From: Thermococcus sp.
GTDB taxonomy: Archaea > Methanobacteriota_B > Thermococci > Thermococcales > Thermococcaceae
NCBI RefSeq assembly: GCF_015523185.1
Contig: NZ_WAKV01000055.1
Coordinates: 1-64,000 of the forward strand
DNA length: 64,000 nucleotides
Reading direction: 5' to 3'
Shown here: positions 22,204 to 33,410 of the stretch, piece after piece
Layout: every line of letters starts with the position of its first letter
How positions within the stretch are numbered: position 1 is the first letter of the stretch
The notes under the pieces: model-generated
Told to the model about the DNA's origin: nothing
Database searches by the model: none
Seen by the model: the letters and a program-made list of their open reading frames with translations, nothing else
Position numbers and translations under genes: made by a program

Positions 22204-23421
22204 ATGTTTGCTTTACTTGGAAAGCTCGTTGATTATAACTCCCTCCGCGACGGCGCTGTTATAGTCGATGGAAACATTATCCAGGCGGTTATTTCCGAGG
22301 AGGAGCTGAAAGACTGGGGAATCGATGAGGTTTACGGCGGGGAAGACTACATTATAACACCCGGATTTGTCAACGCCCACACCCACGTGACGATGGCAAG
22401 GTTTAGGGGTCTGGGTGAGGATTTACCCACGGAGGAGTGGCTTGAAAAAATCATATGGCCTATGGAAAAGACTTGGAGCAAAAAAGAAGTCAGAGAATGG
22501 GCGGAGGTTGGCATTAGGGAAGCGCTCGCGAACGGTTCGACGACGATAAACGACCACTACTTCTTTGCCAATGAGATAGCCAGAGTCGCTGAAAAACTCG
22601 GGATAAGGGCCTTCATCGGGCAAACGGTTATGGACGAGGTGGACTTCCCCCTCGCCAGCCCTGAGGAAGGCTTTAGGTTCTTCAAACGCTGGGATGGAAA
22701 AAGCGAACTCGTTAAACCCGTGTTTGCCCCCCATGCGACCAACACCGTCTCGGAGGAGCTTATGCGTGAACTTGCTGGTCTTTCGGAGGAAACCGGCGCG
22801 AGGGTTCACATACACCTTGCCCAGAGCAGGGCGGAGGTTAGAGAAGTCAAGAAGCGCTATGGCTTTTCGCCAGTTAGTTTGCTGAAAAGAGCTGGTCTCT
22901 TGAACGAGAGGCTGGTAGGGGTTCACGGCGTTTACCTTGGCGTTTCAGACTTCAAAGCTCTCACTCAAGCAGGCTCGACGCTCGTCCACTGTCCGACGAG
23001 CAATGTCAAGCTTGAGGCGAAGACTGTTAACCTGAGACTTCTTCTGGATTTTGGACTCAACGTTGCCCTCGGCAACGACTCGCCAAACCCAACGGGAATC
23101 CTTGACCCGTTCCTTGAGATGAGGACGGCTGGAGTAATAGCAAACATGACAGCTGGAAAAGCCCACGCGGTTCCGGCGCGGGAAATATTCGGTATGGCGA
23201 CGCTCTTTGGGGCGAGGGCGCTCGGCCTGAGGGCAGGGCTGATAAAGCCAGGCTACTTAGCGGATTTGGTCCTCATAAACGCCGACAAACCGTGGTTCAT
23301 GCCGATGGAAAACGTTTATTCGCTCCTCGTTTACTCCGCGAGGGGAAGCGATGTCGAAAAGGTTGTGATAAATGGAAAGATTGTGTGGACTAACCCTTCA
23401 TCATCTTTTCAATCTCCCTGA
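22204..23421 (+). CDS. Amidohydrolase, MTA/SAH/5'-deoxyadenosine deaminase-like
   Basis: This 405-residue metal-dependent hydrolase has the family layout: a small beta domain, then a TIM barrel with HTH (VNAHTHVTMARFRGLGED about 60), HIHLAQSRAEV (about 195), GVHGVYLG, CPTSNVKLEA and NDSPNPTGILDPFLEMR (metal-binding Asp). These are features of the methylthioadenosine/S-adenosylhomocysteine deaminase family (MtaD, DadD), though atrazine-hydrolase-like relatives use other substrates. The likely role is recycling adenosine by-products of SAM reactions. The start at 22204 follows GGTGAGAGC. It converges with the ESCRT-like gene, overlapping by 32 nt. Confidence 0.88.
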   Translation: MFALLGKLVDYNSLRDGAVIVDGNIIQAVISEEELKDWGIDEVYGGEDYIITPGFVNAHTHVTMARFRGLGEDLPTEEWLEKIIWPMEKTWSKKEVREWAEVGIREALANGSTTINDHYFFANEIARVAEKLGIRAFIGQTVMDEVDFPLASPEEGFRFFKRWDGKSELVKPVFAPHATNTVSEELMRELAGLSEETGARVHIHLAQSRAEVREVKKRYGFSPVSLLKRAGLLNERLVGVHGVYLGVSDFKALTQAGSTLVHCPTSNVKLEAKTVNLRLLLDFGLNVALGNDSPNPTGILDPFLEMRTAGVIANMTAGKAHAVPAREIFGMATLFGARALGLRAGLIKPGYLADLVLINADKPWFMPMENVYSLLVYSARGSDVEKVVINGKIVWTNPSSSFQSP

Positions 23422-23938
23422 TTTTCTTCTCCGATGGTTCTATGTCGAAGAAGGCCTCCGTTTCCTTTATCACATCCTCGTCAAAGTTTCCACTCAGGAT
23501 GCTCTCGCTCGTCATGTCGAGCATCGCACTGAGGGCCTCGTCGAGGCTTTCCACCTTCGTCATTGCCTTCTCGAACTCGACCTGCATTCTGGCGATGTCC
23601 TCCGCCCCCGGTCCCTCGGCGATGCTCTCGACGATGTCCCTGCTGAATTGGAGGAACTCCGCGGAGACCTTGACGAGCTCCCTTTGGATCTCGGCCTCCT
23701 CCATCAGGAGGAGCAGACGCTTTGCCTGCTTTATCCTGTTCTCAAGGGTTAGGTACTTGACGGCACTCCTCATTAACAGTGCATCATCCCTGAGCTTCGC
23801 CGCTTCCCTCCCCTGGAGGAAGACCCTGCGCTTCAGTGCCTCAAGGTTGCTTATGTACTGTTTAAGGGCCATCTTGGCCTTTCTGGCCCGGATTTTTCGC
23901 TCTATCTCTTTCTCCTCCTTGGACTTCCAAAACTTCAT
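23390..23938 (-). CDS. Helical ESCRT-III/PspA-like protein, last gene of the kinase operon
   Basis: The 182-residue, all-helical charged protein begins with a basic helix and long hairpin (KEIERKIRARKAKMALKQYI, LEALKRRVFLQGREAAKLRD), then a second long helix (ENRIKQAKRLLLLMEEAEIQ). Shorter helices with IARMQVEFEKAMTKVESLDE and ALSAMLDM follow, and the tail is acidic with a final basic helix (SEKKIREIEKMMKG). Basic N-terminal half, acidic C-terminal half, a helical hairpin of about 100 residues and a closing five-helix region are the general design of ESCRT-III/Snf7 and PspA proteins, which polymerise on membranes. This is a shape-level call; no homology search was possible. It starts 3 nt after the kinase stop. 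Confidence 0.7.
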   Translation of the reverse strand: MKFWKSKEEKEIERKIRARKAKMALKQYISNLEALKRRVFLQGREAAKLRDDALLMRSAVKYLTLENRIKQAKRLLLLMEEAEIQRELVKVSAEFLQFSRDIVESIAEGPGAEDIARMQVEFEKAMTKVESLDEALSAMLDMTSESILSGNFDEDVIKETEAFFDIEPSEKKIREIEKMMKG

Positions 23939-23941
23939 CCT

Positions 23942-25903
23942 TCACACCCCGTTTTCGCGCTCTATCTTGTGGAGGAGGACCTTTAGCCTCTCAACAAAGT
24001 CCTCCCCCACGGGCAGGTTCTCCCTAATCATCAACTCAAGGGTCTCGATGGCCTTTCCCAGTTCCTCCCTGTTTTGCGTCGTGTAGAACTTCAGGTCGTT
24101 GAGCGTGTTCAGCAGTTCCGCCTTTTTGTTGAGCTCCGCGTAGGCCAGGGCGAGCTTTGAGAGCGTCTGCACGACGAGCCTGCTGTTTTCCCTGACTTCC
24201 TCCGCGGTCTTGCTTCTCTTTAACGCCTCCACGCTTTTGGCCAGGGTCTTCTTCAGCTCCTCCACCCGGGATTCAAGTTCCGCCCTGCGTTTTTCACTCT
24301 CCTCAAGCTCGTTGAGGTCCTTCAGGAACTCCTCAACCGACTGATAGCGCTCCTCCTTCCTCTTTGCAAGTAACTTCTCAAAAATGCCGTCGTACTTCGC
24401 AAGGGCGGGGTTAAACTCCGAAGGGGGTTTGTGGCGGTAGTTCTCGTCGGTTATCTTGCCGAAGACCTCCTCGTATGTGTAGCCCTCGAAGGGAACTTTG
24501 CCGGTCAGCAACTCGTAGAAAATCGCCCCGAGTTGCCATACGTCGGTTCCCGCATCGGTGTTGCCGTATTTACTGGGCATCAGGTGCTCGGGTGCGGCGT
24601 AGAGCGGTGTGTAGCCCATGACGCTCCTTCCCGAGCTCATCGTTCCGATTTTTGCGAGTCCCCAGTCGGTTATCTTTGGCGTTAGGTCACTCTTGAGGAG
24701 AACGTTTCCAGGCTTTAGGTCAAGGTGGTAGATGCCTTTCGAGTGGGCATGTTTTAGTCCTTCGGCGATTCCCCTTACTATCCTCAGAGCGGTTTGCTCA
24801 TCAACGGGCTTGGACAATTTCTCAAGCGTTCTAACTACCTTCCCGCCAACGTTGGCGCCTTCAACAAACTCCATCTCAAGGTACGGGACCGGGAGAATGT
24901 CGGCATCGTAGAGCTTTACAATGTTCGGGTGGTTCAACTGGAACCATGTCGAAACCTCGCGGAGGAAAGTCTTGCTCGTCCTCTCGTCTATCCTTGGGAT
25001 TTTCAGCGCAACTACCTTACCGTCCTTCTTTCGTCTCACCTTGTAAACCCTGGCGAACCCACCCTCACCAAGGAATTCCAGGGGCTCGTAGCGCTGAAGA
25101 AGCTCCAACGGGAAACCTGGAGCGTTCCTCGTACCCGTCCTCCCGGTTCTGCGCGCGTTACCTGGAAACGTAAGAACCCACTTCGTCCCTCTTTCCCGCC
25201 CTCCGGTAACAGAGTCTTCCCTGAGCCTCTCCAGGGCTCGATTTATCCTCTCCACGATTAACTGTGCCTCTTCGCTGGTGATAACCTCATGCCGTCTTTT
25301 CACCTCCTCCAGGAGCCTTTTGACCTGGGCTGGGGTTATCCTGTAGGTTATCTTCCACTGTCCGCCGATACGAGAGACGCCCAAATCCTCCGGGAAAACC
25401 TCCAGATAAGCCTCGGGCAAAAACGATGCCGAGCACTCCTTGGGGGCGACGAGCGTGCCCAGGTATTCCTCCTCACCGGAGAGAACCCGCGAGACGTAGG
25501 CCAGATGCCTGTCCTTCCAGTTCGGGTTCCTCAGTAGCTCCTCGAGTTCCATTATGACCTCATTCGGGAGAAGGTTCCTGATTGGAACCCCTGGGGAGGC
25601 GTCCGTTGGGGGTCTAACGGCATCGCAGTAAAATCCAACGAAGTACCATCTCCTGTTAAGGGGGTTCATACTTATGAAGAGCACGATTCCACGGTGGAAC
25701 TTCTGAGGGGTCCTAATTGTGAAGCCATAGTACTTGTTGGGGGAAAAGTCCTCGTAGAAGTTCCACCACTCATGAGCATAGCCGGTTCTCCTGACGAACT
25801 CAAACCCGGAGTCGTACCTCCTCTCAAAGGATTCCCAATCGAAGCCCTTCCATCGGTTGAAGGACCAGTTTATCTTCGCCACAAGCCTGTCCAAGGTTTT
25901 CAC
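23942..25903 (-). CDS. Serine/threonine-type protein kinase with novel N-terminal domain
   Basis: The 653-residue soluble protein has three parts. Residues 1-230 are an aromatic-rich alpha/beta domain (HEWWNFYEDFSPNKYYGFTI; RRWYFVGFYCDAVRPP) reminiscent of EVE/PUA-like folds, uncertain. Residues 270-535 are a Hanks-type kinase: glycine loop GEGGFARVY (279-287), VALKIP with Lys301, Glu316 in the C-helix, HLDLKPGN (393-400), DWG (413-415) and APE (437-439). The catalytic loop has Leu where Arg is usual and DWG replaces DFG, but Lys, Asp, Asn and Asp are all present, so it should be active. Residues 540-653 are helical and end like the neighbouring kinase. It is 3 nt from both neighbours. Confidence 0.9.
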   Translation of the reverse strand: MKTLDRLVAKINWSFNRWKGFDWESFERRYDSGFEFVRRTGYAHEWWNFYEDFSPNKYYGFTIRTPQKFHRGIVLFISMNPLNRRWYFVGFYCDAVRPPTDASPGVPIRNLLPNEVIMELEELLRNPNWKDRHLAYVSRVLSGEEEYLGTLVAPKECSASFLPEAYLEVFPEDLGVSRIGGQWKITYRITPAQVKRLLEEVKRRHEVITSEEAQLIVERINRALERLREDSVTGGRERGTKWVLTFPGNARRTGRTGTRNAPGFPLELLQRYEPLEFLGEGGFARVYKVRRKKDGKVVALKIPRIDERTSKTFLREVSTWFQLNHPNIVKLYDADILPVPYLEMEFVEGANVGGKVVRTLEKLSKPVDEQTALRIVRGIAEGLKHAHSKGIYHLDLKPGNVLLKSDLTPKITDWGLAKIGTMSSGRSVMGYTPLYAAPEHLMPSKYGNTDAGTDVWQLGAIFYELLTGKVPFEGYTYEEVFGKITDENYRHKPPSEFNPALAKYDGIFEKLLAKRKEERYQSVEEFLKDLNELEESEKRRAELESRVEELKKTLAKSVEALKRSKTAEEVRENSRLVVQTLSKLALAYAELNKKAELLNTLNDLKFYTTQNREELGKAIETLELMIRENLPVGEDFVERLKVLLHKIERENGV

Positions 25904-25906
25904 CCC

Positions 25907-27502
25907 TCAGAAACCACCAACCGAGTGAACGATAACCTCACCCTTCTCAACGAGCTCCTCCGGAACGGGGAGCCCCTCTTCAATCCTCAGTTCAATCTGT
26001 TCGATGAGTCCTTCAAGTTCTTTCCTCTCCTTCCCCTTCGCGTACCGTAGGAAGTCCCTCGCGTATTTTAACGCCTCCTTTGTGTCTCCAATCCTGAGAT
26101 GGAGGAGAAACAGCTGGCCCGCGTAGTAGGCCGAGCGCGACAGCTCGACGCTCCTTTTGAGCCCCTCCCTGTATTTGACACCGAGTATTTCGGCCAGGTC
26201 CCTCTGCAGTTCTTCCATACTTTCGTAGCGCTCCTCCTTATCCTTCCTCAGACAGCGGAGGATTATTCCGTCAAGGGGCTTTGCCTTGGGGTTCAGCTCG
26301 CTCGGTTTCACCGGTTCCTCCATGACTATCCTTCCGGCAACCTCGACAAAATCACTCCCCTCAAAGGGCCTCCTTCCGGTCGAGAGCTCGTACATGAGAA
26401 CTCCCAACTGCCACACGTCGGTTCTCTCGTCAACTTCCCCGAAGCGTGAGGGGCTTATCTGCTCCGGCGCGGCGTAGTAGGGCGTCATAGCCGTTACCGT
26501 CGTGGTTCCACTCTCGAAGAGAACCTTCGCCAGCCCCCAGTCGCTTATCTTCGGCTTGGAGCCCTTGAGAAGGACGTTACTGGGCTTCAAATCGCGGTGG
26601 ATTATCCCCTTGGAGTGGGCGTATTTTAATCCCTCCGCTATTTCAAAGGCTATCTCAGCAACTCTTCCAGGGGAAAGGGGTTTCTTAACGTCCTCAAGGG
26701 AGCGGTCGCAGAGTTCCATCTCTATGTAGGGGTATGGAGCCAGATTGGCGTCGTGGAGTTTCACTACGTTGCCATGTTTGAGTTCGCGCCATACCGAAAC
26801 CTCGCGGAGGAAGAGCTTTCCGGTTCTCTTGTTTACAACGTGGGGAACCTTGAGAGCGATCCATCTGCCATCCTTTAGGGCACGGTAGACCCTGCCAAAG
26901 CCCCCTTCGCCTATGAGCTCGACCCTTTCATACCTCGACAGGAGCGCATCCAGTCCGCTAACCCCGCTCTCCCCGGTAATCTCGATTTCGAAGGTTTTCA
27001 CCTCCACAAACGGCCCTGAGCTAACGCGAACTGCAATCGAATGCCTCCCAGCTTTAGAAGGCACGAAACGCACGTACTCGCTCCTCTCCTCCCCGGGGAG
27101 AAGGTAAAAGCCGATGACCTTTCTCTCCAGCTTCCCATGAAGAGCTAACTCGGACAGGTCTATCGAAACGCGAAGGCTTTTTCCTGTCCTGTTCCTGAAG
27201 CCGACCTTTATCAGTGCCTCAGTTCCCCGGATTAACTTTTTCGGCGCCTCAAAAATCAACCCGTCAGCGAGAGGAATCCCACGATTTCTACTCTTGCTAC
27301 TCGGTTCCCTCGGCATCGGCCTCGGAACCTGTCTGGGCCTGGGATATGGCCCCCGTGAGCCGGTTTCCCTCAGGAACCTCTCCACCCACGGTAGGAAGAC
27401 GAAAAACGATATGAGTAACCCAAAGCCCTTCAGGAGGGCAATCAGGAAAATCGAGATGACGAGTCGCCTGACGAAGTCCTCTTCGAGGCTCTTCCTCGGC
27501 AT
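25907..27502 (-). CDS. Membrane-anchored serine/threonine-type protein kinase
   Basis: The 531-residue protein has a hydrophobic segment at 14-39 (VISIFLIALLKGFGLLISFF), a proline/arginine-rich linker and an Ig-like beta-sandwich at 80-178 (LIRGTEALIKVGFRNRTGKS; FVPSKAGRHSIAVRVSSGPF). The kinase domain at 190-440 has GEGGFGRVY (198-206), Lys218, Glu234, HRDLKPSN (302-309), DWG (321-323) and APE (345-347). A helical tail (SAYYAGQLFLLHLRIGDTKE) resembles TPR-type helices, ending EGLPVPEEL, parallel to ENLPVGEDF in the other kinase. With only one clear membrane helix, the beta-sandwich and kinase lie on the same side, presumably the cytoplasm. The DWG motif is shared with the paralogue. Confidence 0.92.
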   Translation of the reverse strand: MPRKSLEEDFVRRLVISIFLIALLKGFGLLISFFVFLPWVERFLRETGSRGPYPRPRQVPRPMPREPSSKSRNRGIPLADGLIFEAPKKLIRGTEALIKVGFRNRTGKSLRVSIDLSELALHGKLERKVIGFYLLPGEERSEYVRFVPSKAGRHSIAVRVSSGPFVEVKTFEIEITGESGVSGLDALLSRYERVELIGEGGFGRVYRALKDGRWIALKVPHVVNKRTGKLFLREVSVWRELKHGNVVKLHDANLAPYPYIEMELCDRSLEDVKKPLSPGRVAEIAFEIAEGLKYAHSKGIIHRDLKPSNVLLKGSKPKISDWGLAKVLFESGTTTVTAMTPYYAAPEQISPSRFGEVDERTDVWQLGVLMYELSTGRRPFEGSDFVEVAGRIVMEEPVKPSELNPKAKPLDGIILRCLRKDKEERYESMEELQRDLAEILGVKYREGLKRSVELSRSAYYAGQLFLLHLRIGDTKEALKYARDFLRYAKGKERKELEGLIEQIELRIEEGLPVPEELVEKGEVIVHSVGGF

Positions 27503-27503
27503 C

Positions 27504-28085
27504 TCACTCCGTCTCCTCCTCGATTACCTTCTTCGTGGCCTCCTTCGGCTCAAGTTCGCCCTCCTTGACAGCTCTTATTGTGCTCAGTATCTCCTCAAGC
27601 TCCTCGTCGGCCTCAAAGTCCTCGACTCCGATCGTCCTGTCGGTCATGCCGAGCATCTTCTCAAGGCTCTCGTTGAAGTTTCTCGCATCTAGCTCCATCT
27701 CGATTAACTTCTCCTCCAGCTCCCTTGGCGACATTTTCTTGAGCATCTCCCAGGTTGGCGTTCCCTTCAGGAGCTCCTCGTTCTCCTTGATGATGAGCAG
27801 GTTGCTGACGAGCATCAACTGCTTGTTCAGCTGGGCGTGGGTCGCCTGGAGGTTCTTCTTGCGTTTGTTGAGGGTCTTTATCTTCGTGGCTATCGTGAGT
27901 TCCTCGCTCCTGCTCCTGACCTTCTTTGCCCTCTCAAAGAGCTCGGCTATCTCCGCTTCTATGGCCCTGAGCTCGCGCTCAACCTTCTCAATCTGGGCCT
28001 CAAGCTTCATCTGGTTCTCAAGTAGGTCCTTGAGGGGAACGTCCAGCGGATTCTTCGGTCCAAAAAACTTTGAGAGGAGCCCCAT
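27504..28085 (-). CDS. ESCRT-III/PspA-like helical protein, paralogue A
   Basis: This 193-residue protein starts MGLLSKFFGPKNP, an amphipathic segment that could insert in a membrane. It continues as a long helical hairpin (LLENQMKLEAQIEKVERELR; AIEAEIAELFERAKKVRSRS; TIATKIKTLNKRKKNLQATH), short helices (EKLIEMELDARNFNESLEKM) and an acidic tail (EDFEADEELEEIL). The same order, with matching short phrases (LLIIKENEELLKGTPTWEML versus LIVVKKYEKELRKVGVWDKL), is seen in the upstream gene, so the two are tandem paralogues. The basic-hairpin/acidic-tail plan is that of ESCRT-III subunits. One nucleotide separates it from each neighbour. Confidence 0.72.
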   Translation of the reverse strand: MGLLSKFFGPKNPLDVPLKDLLENQMKLEAQIEKVERELRAIEAEIAELFERAKKVRSRSEELTIATKIKTLNKRKKNLQATHAQLNKQLMLVSNLLIIKENEELLKGTPTWEMLKKMSPRELEEKLIEMELDARNFNESLEKMLGMTDRTIGVEDFEADEELEEILSTIRAVKEGELEPKEATKKVIEEETE

Positions 28086-28086
28086 G

Positions 28087-28671
28087 TCACTCCTCCTCCG
28101 TCTCGGCCTTCAGGACCTTCTCCACAACTTCCTCTGGTTCCGCCTCACCGCTCTCAACCTGGGTCCAGGCCTCGAAGAGCTCCTTCTCCGTCTCGTCTTC
28201 GCCCTCCTCGAACTCGGCTATCTCCATCTCGAAGACCCTGTTAAGGCTCTCCACCATCTCGTTGAACTCCTTGCCGTCGAGGTTTATCCTTATGAGGGCC
28301 TTCTCAAGCTCTCCAGGTTCCACCTTCTTGAGCTTGTCCCAGACTCCAACCTTGCGGAGCTCCTTCTCGTACTTCTTGACGACGATTAGGTTCTTTATCA
28401 GGGTGTACTGCTTCTGGGCCGTCGTGAACTCCTTGAGCTTGAGCTTCTCCTCCATATCCAGGCTCTTAATTTCCTGGGCGAGCATCTTTTTCTTGAGTTT
28501 GTCGGCCCCTGTGCCCTGCTGGAAGATCTCCTTCTTCCTCTTTTCTATGGCGTTTATGTCCTTCTTCAGCCTCTCGAGCCGGTTCCTAAGCCTAATCTCC
28601 TCCTCCTGGAGTTCCCTGAGGGAGAGCTTCTCAACGGTGCTTTTCCTACCAAAAACGTCTCGTATTCCCAT
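28087..28671 (-). CDS. ESCRT-III/PspA-like helical protein, paralogue B
   Basis: The 194-residue protein begins MGIRDVFGRKSTVEKLSLRE, followed by a helical hairpin (RLRNRLERLKKDINAIEKRK; KKKMLAQEIKSLDMEEKLKL), a segment shared with paralogue A (KNLIVVKKYEKELRKVGVWD), short helices (ALIRINLDGKEFNEMVESLN) and a Glu-rich tail. The start at 28671 is chosen because GGAGGTG precedes it and because MGI..VFG aligns with MGLLSKFFG of paralogue A; the longer open frame runs back into the upstream gene. Its ATG is 1 nt after that gene's stop. Members of this design assemble into filaments in other organisms; this one is untested. Confidence 0.72.
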   Translation of the reverse strand: MGIRDVFGRKSTVEKLSLRELQEEEIRLRNRLERLKKDINAIEKRKKEIFQQGTGADKLKKKMLAQEIKSLDMEEKLKLKEFTTAQKQYTLIKNLIVVKKYEKELRKVGVWDKLKKVEPGELEKALIRINLDGKEFNEMVESLNRVFEMEIAEFEEGEDETEKELFEAWTQVESGEAEPEEVVEKVLKAETEEE

Positions 28672-28672
28672 C

Positions 28673-30520
28673 TCATTCACCTCCAAACTCCTTTGAAACG
28701 AGGACGTATCCAACACCCTCCACGTACTTGGCAACGTAGCCCTCCCCTTGGAGGGAGAGGAAGGCCTTCCTTACGATTTCAACGGGCAGGTTCAGCTCGT
28801 TCAGCGCCTCCTCAAAGCGGACGTAGTGCTTGTAAGTTAGCCGGTTGCGCAGGAAGCTCCGGGCCTTTTCAAGCAGTTCCTCGTCGAACTCAAGCCTGAG
28901 GAGCGGGGCAAAGGCCCTTGCGTAGGGATCGTTGGGATTGTGAATCATCTCGCCCGAGCCGAGGTCAAGGAGTAGCAGGGAAACGTTTGCGTCAACGAAG
29001 TTCCTGTGGAACTCATCGGAGGAGACGTAGTTGTAAATCCTCCTCTCAAAGCCGGTTGGTGAAGCTATGAGTAAAACAGTTCTCTTTTCTCCTTTTCTTA
29101 CGTCGTCGAGGATGGCGTTCAGCTCGGCGAGCTCTACAGGATCCGTGTCAAAGCCGTATTCGGCGTAGCGCTCAGGTCTTGAGAGGTAAAGGGCCCTGAC
29201 GATGAGGTTCTCCTTCTTACCAAGGAGCTTCTTCTCCTTCAAGCTAGCTTCGATGAGAACGTTGGTTGGAACGTTTTTGAGGGCAATCTCGTCGAGTTTT
29301 TCCCTGTATCTGGAGCGGTCAAAGGTTTCCTTCTCCTCTATGGCCTCGACCTTGAAGGTCTTTCCGAGCAACCTTACCTCGTTTCTAAGCTTGCCCCTAA
29401 TCCTGCCTGCGAAGTTCATCTCCATCATCCTGGCCTCATCGCTTCTGACGAAGCGCGAGCCTTTCTCCACCTTTCCAGCAAGTCTAAGGACTTCCTCAAT
29501 CTGCGTTCTGGCTTCCTCTTCAGCTTTCGAGAGCTCCAGTTCTCGTTTTTTGAGTTCCATCTCCTTTTTCCTCAGCTCAAGTTCCCTCTGTCTAAGCCTC
29601 TCGGCGATGGCAACGACTTCGGCCTTCATCCTCTCCTCTGCCTTCCTGAGTTCTTCCTCCAGTTTTTCCCTTAGCTCTTCATCCTTCATCCGCGATATCT
29701 CCTCGATGAGTCTGGCCTTCTCCTCCTCGAATTGTCTTCTGAGCTCCTCGTTCTTCCGTTTTAGCGCCTCGATTTCTTCCTCCTTGGCCGATTCAACCTC
29801 AGCCCTAATCCTCTCAACCTCCTCCTTCCAGCGCTCGCGGATGAGTTCTATGGCCCTTCTCAGCCTCTGGACTTCCAGCTCCTTCTCCTCAAGCTTTTTC
29901 CTGTAAACCCTCTCGACTGCCTCCGTCTCCTTTTTGGCTTCCTCAAGGAAGTCCCTGAACCAGTCGAAGCGCGCGGTTGCCTCCGCAATCGCGAGGTTTA
30001 TCTTCTCCCTGTACGAGTCCCAGGTTGACTTCAGGAAGTCCCTGAGGGCCAGTCCGTGCCTTGGATTTCTGAGGAACTCCTGGAGCCACTTGTCAAAGGA
30101 GTAATACTCCCGAAGGAGAGAAAGAACTTCGTTGTCCCTGTGCATTATCAGCTTCATGACGTCCTCCCTTGAGTAGATTTCAAAGACGTTGTAGCGGAAG
30201 AGCCTCTCAATGGCCCCCAGCTCCTCGGGGGTGAACCTTCTCTTAGCGGGTTCAAAATCCTCTCCGTTTCTGCTAAACGACCACGCCAAAAGGGCCAGCG
30301 CCCCCTCGAACTTTGCCCTGAAGCGCCTGTCCAGGTCCCTAAGGAAATCCCCGCATTCACCCTCCTGGTAGCGGTTGTAAGCCTCCACGATTCTGCCCCA
30401 TAGCTCAGCCCTGGTTCCGTAGCTTTCCCGCCAGACGTCGGTTCCTAGCCTCAAAACCCGTTCCGCTGGGCGGAGAAGTTCTTTAACGCAGTTCGCGTTT
30501 CCCTCCTCAAGGAGCCCCAT
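28673..30520 (-). CDS. Coiled-coil protein with C-terminal winged-helix-like domain
   Basis: The 615-residue product has a globular helical N-terminus (1-190), a long charged coiled coil (about 195-345; heptads such as KRKNEELRRQFEEEKARLIE), an alpha/beta domain (about 400-545; NLIVRALYLSRPERYAEYGF, KRTVLLIASPTGFERRIYNY) and a C-terminal helix-turn-helix with wing (LTYKHYVRFEEALNELNLPV then EGYVAKYVEGVGYVLVS). I do not recognise the family. A winged helix at the end of a scaffold recalls adaptors that recruit ESCRT-III subunits, but could equally bind DNA. The start at 30520 follows GCGGGTGATTCCC, overlapping the upstream gene by 14 nt. Confidence 0.8.
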   Translation of the reverse strand: MGLLEEGNANCVKELLRPAERVLRLGTDVWRESYGTRAELWGRIVEAYNRYQEGECGDFLRDLDRRFRAKFEGALALLAWSFSRNGEDFEPAKRRFTPEELGAIERLFRYNVFEIYSREDVMKLIMHRDNEVLSLLREYYSFDKWLQEFLRNPRHGLALRDFLKSTWDSYREKINLAIAEATARFDWFRDFLEEAKKETEAVERVYRKKLEEKELEVQRLRRAIELIRERWKEEVERIRAEVESAKEEEIEALKRKNEELRRQFEEEKARLIEEISRMKDEELREKLEEELRKAEERMKAEVVAIAERLRQRELELRKKEMELKKRELELSKAEEEARTQIEEVLRLAGKVEKGSRFVRSDEARMMEMNFAGRIRGKLRNEVRLLGKTFKVEAIEEKETFDRSRYREKLDEIALKNVPTNVLIEASLKEKKLLGKKENLIVRALYLSRPERYAEYGFDTDPVELAELNAILDDVRKGEKRTVLLIASPTGFERRIYNYVSSDEFHRNFVDANVSLLLLDLGSGEMIHNPNDPYARAFAPLLRLEFDEELLEKARSFLRNRLTYKHYVRFEEALNELNLPVEIVRKAFLSLQGEGYVAKYVEGVGYVLVSKEFGGE

Positions 30521-31028
30521 GGGAATCACCCGCCAGGGGTTTTAGCTCCTCGTCAATTCGAGAAATGAGATAATCAACGACCTCACCGTAGCCCGAGACC
30601 GTGACCCTGACGAGGGTACTCGCTCCAACTCCAGTGAGGTCGAACTTTATCGTTCCCCTCCCCTTCCTCGTGTAAACCTCGCAGGTCTCATCGAGCCTGA
30701 ACGTCCCTCCGAGCTTGGAGCACAGGTAGGTGAGAAACCTCCTGACGAAGCCCTCCTCCTCTGGTATCCGGTACTCCCTCGTAACACTCCTTTCCCTGAG
30801 TTCAGGCCACTCCTCAGCAACGCGAAAGACCCTGACTTTCTCGGCGGGATTGCCCTCTATTTTTGAAAACAGCTCCTCAAAGAACTCCCTATCGCGGTCG
30901 GTCTCTATGATGAACGTCATACCCCTTGGCTTTTCAACGCCTGCCCTCTCGGCCCACTTGGAGAGAAGGTAGTCAACGCGCTTTCGCTCGGCGTCATCAT
31001 CGTACGAAACAACGACGAGGTACTTCAT
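30507..31028 (-). CDS. Small alpha/beta protein, first gene of the kinase operon
   Basis: This 173-residue protein opens MKYLVVVSYDDDAERKRVDY, a beta strand followed by acidic residues and a helix. It continues with FIIETDRDREFFEELFSKIE and a second half with a conserved-looking TREYRIPEEEGFVRRFLTYL and TRKGRGTIKFDLTGVGASTL. The N-terminal strand-DDD-helix start resembles ferredoxin-fold proteins of the Cas2/VapD kind, but there is no cas gene nearby and the match is weak. I do not recognise the family. It heads the seven-gene minus-strand operon, with the promoter at 31081-31088. Confidence 0.75.
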   Translation of the reverse strand: MKYLVVVSYDDDAERKRVDYLLSKWAERAGVEKPRGMTFIIETDRDREFFEELFSKIEGNPAEKVRVFRVAEEWPELRERSVTREYRIPEEEGFVRRFLTYLCSKLGGTFRLDETCEVYTRKGRGTIKFDLTGVGASTLVRVTVSGYGEVVDYLISRIDEELKPLAGDSHGAP

Positions 31029-31080
31029 ACGCCATCACTACCCCGGTTCTCTCAAACGCTAGTATTTGGCGTTATTGCCT

Positions 31081-31108
31081 ATTTAAAGTTTTCTCCATTT
31101 TGGAGAAA
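31081..31108 (-). promoter_or_regulatory. Promoter and inverted-repeat operator of the kinase operon
   Basis: On the minus strand, a TATA box CTTTAAAT (31081-31088) lies about 53 nt upstream of the first ATG of the operon. Directly upstream of it is a perfect inverted repeat, TTTCTCCA-AAA-TGGAGAAA (31090-31108), with 8-bp arms. A dyad placed just before the BRE/TATA in archaea is typical of an activator site, or of a repressor blocking TFB. I do not recognise it as the site of a known Thermococcales regulator. Confidence 0.55.
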
Positions 31109-32412: not shown

Positions 32413-32892
32413 TTACTCCTTCTTGCCTACCATTTTGATGACGTAGTCCGCTGCGTTCTGCAACGCTACAGAAAAGCCAGGTTCTGTTCCTATGACTATC
32501 GTTTCCTTCCCCCTCCTCTTAGCTTCTTGGATTATAGGCAGGAAATCGGCGTCGCGCGTGGCCAACGCTATGACATCAACTTCAGAGTTGTAAATCAGCT
32601 CCATCGCCTCAATGGCTATTCTCACATCGGTATCGCCAGCAACAATTACAGGTTCAAGTCCTTGGTTAACGACTGCCTCTATAAGCCCCTGCGGTGCGTA
32701 CTGGTTGAGCACGACCTTCGCCACCCTTATTCGGCCGATTCGTTCGAGTGCCTCAATGATGTCCTCAAGTTTTATGCCGAGCTCCTTTCGGAGGATGTTT
32801 GGGCCGTCAATTATGAGCCCGATACTCTTCCCATGGGTCTCCTCATGTTCTTCTTTCTCACGCTTCAGAACCTTGATTAGCGTCTCCTTCAT
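32413..32892 (-). CDS. NYN-domain (LabA/TIGR00288-like) protein, copy 2
   Basis: This 159-residue protein has the NYN/PIN-like nuclease fold: [15 protein letters not shown] with the first acidic residue, [45 protein letters not shown] with the acidic pair, and [15 protein letters not shown]. The positions of Asp in IDGPN, in TDVR and in RDADF match metal-binding residues of NYN RNases. Its ATG overlaps the stop of the upstream copy by 4 nt. The two are clear tandem paralogues. The natural RNA substrate is not known. Confidence 0.88.
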
Positions 32893-33410
32893 CCCTCGTT
32901 CCCCCTCTCGTTCTTTGACTGCAGTATTATAGCATAATCCGCGGCGTGCTTCAGTGCAACGGAGAAGCCTGGCTCGATTCCTATGACTATCGTTTCTTTC
33001 CCCTTTTCCTTTGCCTTGAGGATGACCGGAAGGAACTCTGCGTTCCTGGTCGCTATGGCTATAACGTCTATGTTTGGATTGTAAATTTCGCGCATGGCCT
33101 CTACGGCGAGCTTGACTCCTGTCTCACCGGAAACGACAATGGCCTCAAACCCCTGATTTGAAACGGCCTCAATAAGACCCTGTGGCGCGTATTGGTTCAG
33201 AACGACCTTAGCGACCCGAATGTCTCCAAGATTCTCAAGCACCTCGACGATGTCCTCAAGCTTTATCCCAAACTCTTTGCGAAGAATGTTCGGACCATCT
33301 ATGAGAAGTGCAATTCTCTTCCCGCGCCGAGAATTCCGTTTGATAATTCCGATACTTCGAATTCCGTCCTTCGTCATCGAGATTATCTTCTCCCAGCTTC
33401 CCCCTGGCAT
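32889..33410 (-). CDS. NYN-domain (LabA/TIGR00288-like) protein, copy 1
   Basis: The 173-residue paralogue has [40 protein letters not shown], a [12 protein letters not shown] segment and [20 protein letters not shown]. The second copy has TDVR and RDADF where this one has TGVK and RNAEF, so several presumed metal-binding acids are lost here and catalysis may be reduced. The start at 33410 is preferred because GGTGACAGCT precedes it; an ATG at 33449 lies too close (about 20 nt) to the TATA box TTTATATG at about 33463-33471. Inactive/active pairs can form heterodimers, which is inference. Confidence 0.85.

Follow-up and report, generated by a model that had tools for sequence, protein, structure and literature searches.

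The window (the whole 64,000-nucleotide stretch of Thermococcus sp. DNA that was analyzed) contains a seven-gene operon that is a real ESCRT-type membrane-remodeling cluster, of a type already described in euryarchaea by Makarova et al. 2024 (PMC10936438). The form of this cluster found here, which has no Vps4 gene, is new. In the reading that we consider probable, a 'Main'-type system has lost its own Vps4 together with a second kinase and a PP2C phosphatase, and remains as an auxiliary ESCRT-III/kinase module in a genome that carries a second, complete locus.

Operon organization and relation to 'Main' clade loci

Seven packed genes on the minus strand had been described for this region in the earlier note, and the seven open reading frames, their coordinates (23390-31028), order and gaps were all verified. 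The intergenic spacings, in transcription order, are -14, +1, +1, +1, +3 and +3 nt. With corrected starts, the coiled-coil gene is best placed at 28673-30520 and the first hairpin gene at 28087-28671. The operon and its promoter comprise the following features:

31091..31107, minus strand: inverted repeat TTCTCCAAAATGGAGAA, 17 bp, putative operator, conserved in 20 ESCRT-operon promoters
31080..31087, minus strand: TATA-box-like TTTAAATA of the operon promoter, recognized from sequence; spacing to the inverted repeat conserved
30507..31028, minus strand: gene 1, 173 aa α/β protein, probable arCOG08177 type by linkage (homologues, alignment)
28673..30520, minus strand: gene 2, 615 aa coiled-coil protein, probable arCOG09748 type (linkage, architecture, alignment)
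28087..28671, minus strand: gene 3, ESCRT-III-like hairpin protein b, 194 aa (paralogue of gene 4; Vps4 linkage in relatives)
27504..28085, minus strand: gene 4, ESCRT-III-like hairpin protein a, 193 aa (Snf7 E 0.0071; AlphaFold2 model; CdvB2/CHMP matches)
25907..27502, minus strand: gene 5, membrane-anchored protein kinase, 531 aa (PF00069; TM segment; catalytic motifs)
23942..25903, minus strand: gene 6, soluble protein kinase, apparently composite, 653 aa (PF00069; chimera analysis)
23390..23938, minus strand: gene 7, third ESCRT-III-like hairpin protein, 182 aa (Snf7 in 18/18 orthologues; AlphaFold2; CdvB top match)

In order, composition and sizes, these genes fit the 'Main' clade of euryarchaeal ESCRT loci as described by Makarova et al. 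2024 (PMC10936438). According to that survey, 'Main' loci encode Vps4, ESCRT-III, arCOG08177 and arCOG09748 proteins, often with a membrane STK (TM, Ig-like, kinase and PCI-like parts) and a protein phosphatase, and Thermococcales are among the listed carriers of the clade. Measured against that description, the window locus is like the 'Main' clade in having ESCRT-III genes, a probable arCOG08177-type and a probable arCOG09748-type gene (both assigned by linkage and architecture; these proteins have no Pfam match) and a membrane STK, but it differs in the absence of the defining Vps4 and of PP2C, in its composite second kinase and in belonging to a genome that has a further, complete locus. 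A 2021 review had described Thermococcales as having Vps4 homologues but no ESCRT-III (PMC10117752). The loci analyzed here, resolved gene by gene in about 20 genomes, back the 2024 view over that review.

The presence of two protein kinases in the operon, one of them membrane-anchored, was borne out by PF00069 matches to gene 5 (E 6.8e-48) and gene 6 (E 8.1e-47) and by an N-terminal hydrophobic segment in gene 5 (Kyte-Doolittle 2.47 around residues 14-37); the other six operon proteins have no comparable hydrophobic segment. Both kinases retain the glycine loop, the ATP-binding lysine, the catalytic loop (HRDLKPSN in one kinase, HLDLKPGN in the other) and the DWG motif. The Ig-like part of gene 5 showed a weak match to Transglut_C (E 0.18). 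Known anti-phage kinase systems were considered as a candidate and rejected: the PADLOC matches fall on the two kinases, for the most part on the kinase domains; for the other five operon proteins PADLOC returned marginal coiled-coil matches or none. One more kinase-like match (L069, G000:C55:73682-74104, E 3e-14) is located on the same contig outside the window, ~43 kb from the operon.

ESCRT-III identity of the hairpin proteins

The assignment of the hairpin proteins to ESCRT-III is well supported; no one test is conclusive, and the case is made jointly by the sequence and structure matches and by the unbroken linkage to Vps4 in relatives. In the window, the Pfam Snf7 family was matched by hairpin protein a (27504-28085, E 0.0071) and by the third hairpin protein (23390-23938, E 0.25), and hairpin protein b (28087-28671) gave no Pfam Snf7 match. 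Genes 3 and 4, which the earlier note took for paralogues, are indeed related, with 31% identity and an hhalign probability of 98.6%. Among homologues, Snf7 matched 18/18 orthologues of the third hairpin (best E 4.5e-6 with 26.9 bits, below the curated cut-off of 27.3) and 12/29 members of the family of hairpins a and b (best E 0.00099, amid other coiled-coil matches), all Snf7 matches being under Pfam's curated cut-off.

AlphaFold2 models, built on shallow alignments, predicted a long α1-α2 hairpin followed by shorter helices for the third hairpin protein (helices 7-48 and 52-106) and a long α1-α2 hairpin for hairpin protein a (helices 18-53 and 59-101), both with pLDDT of about 80. When the third hairpin model was compared with solved structures using Foldseek, Sulfolobus islandicus CdvB occupied ranks 1-3 (prob 1.00, E 0.03-0.04; Foldseek E-values, 0.03 at best, are not significant alone), and CdvB2 entries and CHMP2A-CHMP3 followed at lower ranks. 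For hairpin protein a, the matches listed include CdvB2, CHMP2A-CHMP3, CHMP3 and Asgard ESCRT-IIIB with weaker scores, and a designed helical protein and CT398 outrank these ESCRT-III entries. A sequence search of the PDB for ESCRT-III relatives produced no usable match.

PspA, IM30 and Vipp1 are helical-hairpin proteins within the wider ESCRT-III superfamily, and the earlier note had called the operon proteins ESCRT-III/PspA-like. The first half of this description, an ESCRT-III system linked to kinases, stands on the Snf7 matches, the CdvB/CHMP structures and the Vps4 linkage, whereas the PspA half does not. The window proteins resemble PspA/IM30/Vipp1 in their helical hairpin, but no PspA family is among their Pfam matches (E<=1) and no PspA or Vipp1 structure is among the 50 Foldseek matches listed for hairpins 3 and a; a PspA/IM30 envelope-stress system was therefore rejected. 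With the crenarchaeal Cdv system (CdvA/CdvB/CdvC) the operon has the CdvB-type ESCRT-III fold in common, as seen in the best structure match of hairpin 3, but the window operon contains no Vps4/CdvC and its genome has FtsZ. By homology, the hairpin proteins would be expected to polymerize on a membrane.

Conservation of the cluster in Thermococcus

Gene 1, the adjoining gene 2 and the paralogous pair of hairpin genes were found together in 20 other Thermococcus loci, with kinases and Vps4 nearby. Since these first four genes recur jointly, a chance grouping is ruled out, and the scattering of neighbors in related genomes that the earlier note had named as evidence against its reading was not observed. 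Homologues of gene 1 are present in 30/61 Thermococcus genomes and the third hairpin in 23/61, and in the sampled phylum the third hairpin was detected in a single family. The system is patchy yet widespread within the genus. A distant gene-1 homologue (32% identity) was detected near the end of a Thermoplasmata metagenome contig, followed by an unidentified gene (L022:4421-5897).

In the other loci examined, including that on contig C35 of the same genome, Vps4 is encoded in 20/20 cases. Four relatives have Vps4 at the same genomic site as the window locus (G046, G070, G044 and G042). In G046 and G070, which share the flanking genes of the window locus, the order is membrane kinase, Vps4 (AAA and Vps4_C domains), second kinase, PP2C, a 1447-aa kinase protein and third hairpin, as read with a simple purpose-made gene caller whose starts may be wrong. 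G042 has Vps4 at this site without the third hairpin. The window locus has neither Vps4 nor the second kinase and PP2C of its closest relatives, in agreement with the earlier note, which had seen no AAA ATPase within the cluster; here the membrane kinase is followed by one 653-aa kinase and then directly by the third hairpin. No further countable Vps4-less locus was found among the related loci, G065, G069 and G059 having been left out because their contigs end before the Vps4 position. Beside the operon, the window contains two tandem related genes (32413-33410) with an NYN domain in 32413-32892, and these genes adjoin the locus in G046, G070, G044 and G042 too.

A composite kinase gene at the site of the inferred loss

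The soluble kinase encoded by gene 6 looks like a composite of the N-terminus of the Vps4-side kinase and the C-terminus of the kinase on the third-hairpin side, as would be left by a scar of the loss. Its residues 1-200 match the Vps4-adjoining kinase of G017, G042 and G012 at 56-86% per 50-block, versus 0-34% for the last kinases, and residues 301-653 match the last kinase of G044, G046 and G070 at 76-96% per full block. Across 68 informative sites, gene 6 is of the first type to residue 213 and of the second type from residue 399, with a mixed zone between. On this sequence pattern, the simplest reading would be a deletion by recombination between kinase genes, taking with it Vps4, one kinase and PP2C, and gene 6 would mark the site where Vps4 and PP2C were lost. 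A swap of the N-terminus of the last kinase combined with a separate deletion is a possible alternative. In L027, L028, L041, L060 and other related loci, the catalytic and C-terminal parts of the kinases are similar and the N-terminal extensions, of up to about 1000 residues, are very different, as if sensors were swapped among strains.

The main rival explanation is an assembly collapse, in which Vps4 and PP2C are still present in the real locus and were skipped when the assembler passed from one kinase gene to a similar one. The loss of Vps4 rests on one assembly, an 85-contig draft, the junction falls inside a gene whose relatives are repeated in the locus, and a false join would yield a composite kinase as observed. 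However, none of the genome's other contigs carries a stray Vps4 of this type, the change from one kinase type to the other is spread as a mixture over residues 213-399 with no single clean step, and the composite open reading frame is intact. The N-termini of the last kinases also vary among relatives with finished genomes. We consider a collapse of the assembly fairly unlikely, and favor a deletion that occurred in the organism.

A second, complete locus and a shared promoter element

The locus on contig C35 encodes homologues of gene 1 and gene 2, all three hairpins, four kinase domains, two Vps4 proteins and PP2C. Its PP2C (C35:54243) is the sole match in the genome, and the Vps4_C matches in the genome are the two on C35, a divergent third Vps4 on C85 and Cdc48-type matches. 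The GC contents of the two contigs are close (0.517 and 0.496) and the contamination estimate of the assembly is 0.48%, so that both loci probably come from one organism.

The promoters of the window and C35 loci both contain TCCAAAATGGAGAAAACTTTAAATA. Upstream of gene 1, TTCTCCAAAATGGAGAA is followed by AACTTTAAATA, and the only perfect match of TTCTCCAAAATGGAGAA in the window is the site at 31091..31107. The position of this element relative to the TATA box suggests that the inverted repeat is a putative operator. A 25-base pattern, TCCANNNNGGAGAAANNTTTAWATA, has 20 occurrences in the 61 Thermococcus genomes, each a short distance ahead of gene 1 in such an operon (57-78 bases where this was measured), whereas the reversed control of the pattern has 0 occurrences in the same genomes; because these same promoters served to define the pattern, part of its exclusivity is to be expected. 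Stronger evidence comes from the footprint seen when C35 is compared with the window: 28/30 bases agree within the element, against 17/43 upstream and 16/42 downstream. The bare palindrome CTCCANNNTGGAG is uninformative genome-wide, with five places versus three for a control pattern, and becomes informative only when combined with the TATA box. The promoter element is absent at the loci of G002, G003, G011, G014, G020, G021, G024, G053 and G076. No mention of the shared palindrome/TATA element was found in the available sections of Makarova et al. 2024 (PMC10936438), and a limited literature search found no earlier report of it.

Proposed mechanism and function

Vps4 and PP2C are absent locally but are both encoded on C35, where the locus has this promoter element too, so that their supply in trans from C35 would be the most economical model. 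In this model, two kinase genes of the window locus probably recombined with each other, and the local genes were lost in this way. On the inner surface of the cell membrane, the ESCRT-III-like proteins would form assemblies, and the membrane-anchored and soluble kinases would tune this assembly or the recruitment of cargo by phosphorylation. Disassembly and dephosphorylation would be carried out in trans by the Vps4 and PP2C proteins from C35, the two loci being expressed together via the shared promoter element. Which genes are present or missing, their homology and synteny, the composite make-up of gene 6 and the common promoter element are direct results; that the loss is biological, that C35 serves the window locus in trans, that the proteins polymerize, what the kinases target and which process is served are inferred from them. 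Phosphorylation of ESCRT-III factors is a known form of control in eukaryotes (PMC7618577).

The presence of FtsZ points to FtsZ-based division in the source genome. Because FtsZ is retained, a role of the module in division is less likely, and vesicle formation or membrane repair would be the more likely process. According to an unpublished result cited in the 2021 review, single disruptions of Vps4 homologues in T. kodakarensis left vesicle production unchanged (PMC10117752).

A different explanation is that the window ESCRT-III proteins work independently of Vps4, with kinase phosphorylation or proteolysis replacing ATPase-driven disassembly, or with a polymer that is used once. This would be in line with the retention of two kinases beside a missing local Vps4, and with the tail of the third hairpin protein. 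In orthologues of this protein, the C-terminus is a conserved RLKxIE-like predicted helix located where a Vps4-binding motif (MIM) would lie, and the tail has Lys-Ile in the window only, with Arg-Leu in 17/17 orthologues. Such a change is conservative and seen in a single case; it may be meaningless, or it may be a sign of weakened or relaxed Vps4 binding. Against Vps4 independence, the same genome also encodes two Vps4 proteins in a locus that shares the promoter element. We regard Vps4-independent operation as improbable, and the view that the altered tail reflects release from Vps4 as no less so, and prefer the supply of Vps4 in trans.

With one locus containing Vps4 and PP2C and the other devoid of them, and with a promoter element in common, the genome offers an experiment made by nature, in which to ask if a single Vps4 is able to serve two sets of ESCRT-III proteins and what role the kinases play. 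The shared element also opens a way to the regulator, and through it to the condition under which the system is switched on.

The window locus could also be a decaying remnant, a redundant and functionless second locus in the course of being lost, as the complete copy on C35 and the disappearance of Vps4 and PP2C would allow. However, its seven open reading frames are intact and tightly packed, the catalytic motifs and the promoter element are retained, and the dN/dS values of the window genes versus G046 are 0.04-0.11, a range that spans the whole divergence from G046 and not only the time since the loss. If the loss was very recent, none of these features would yet show decay. A remnant appears highly improbable to us, and an auxiliary module that persists in function remains the preferred reading. 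In the same comparison with G046, the paralogous ESCRT-III genes (27504-28671) have dS values of 0.42-0.54, against 0.77-1.5 for the other compared genes; gene conversion, recent transfer or strong codon constraint could account for the low dS of this pair.
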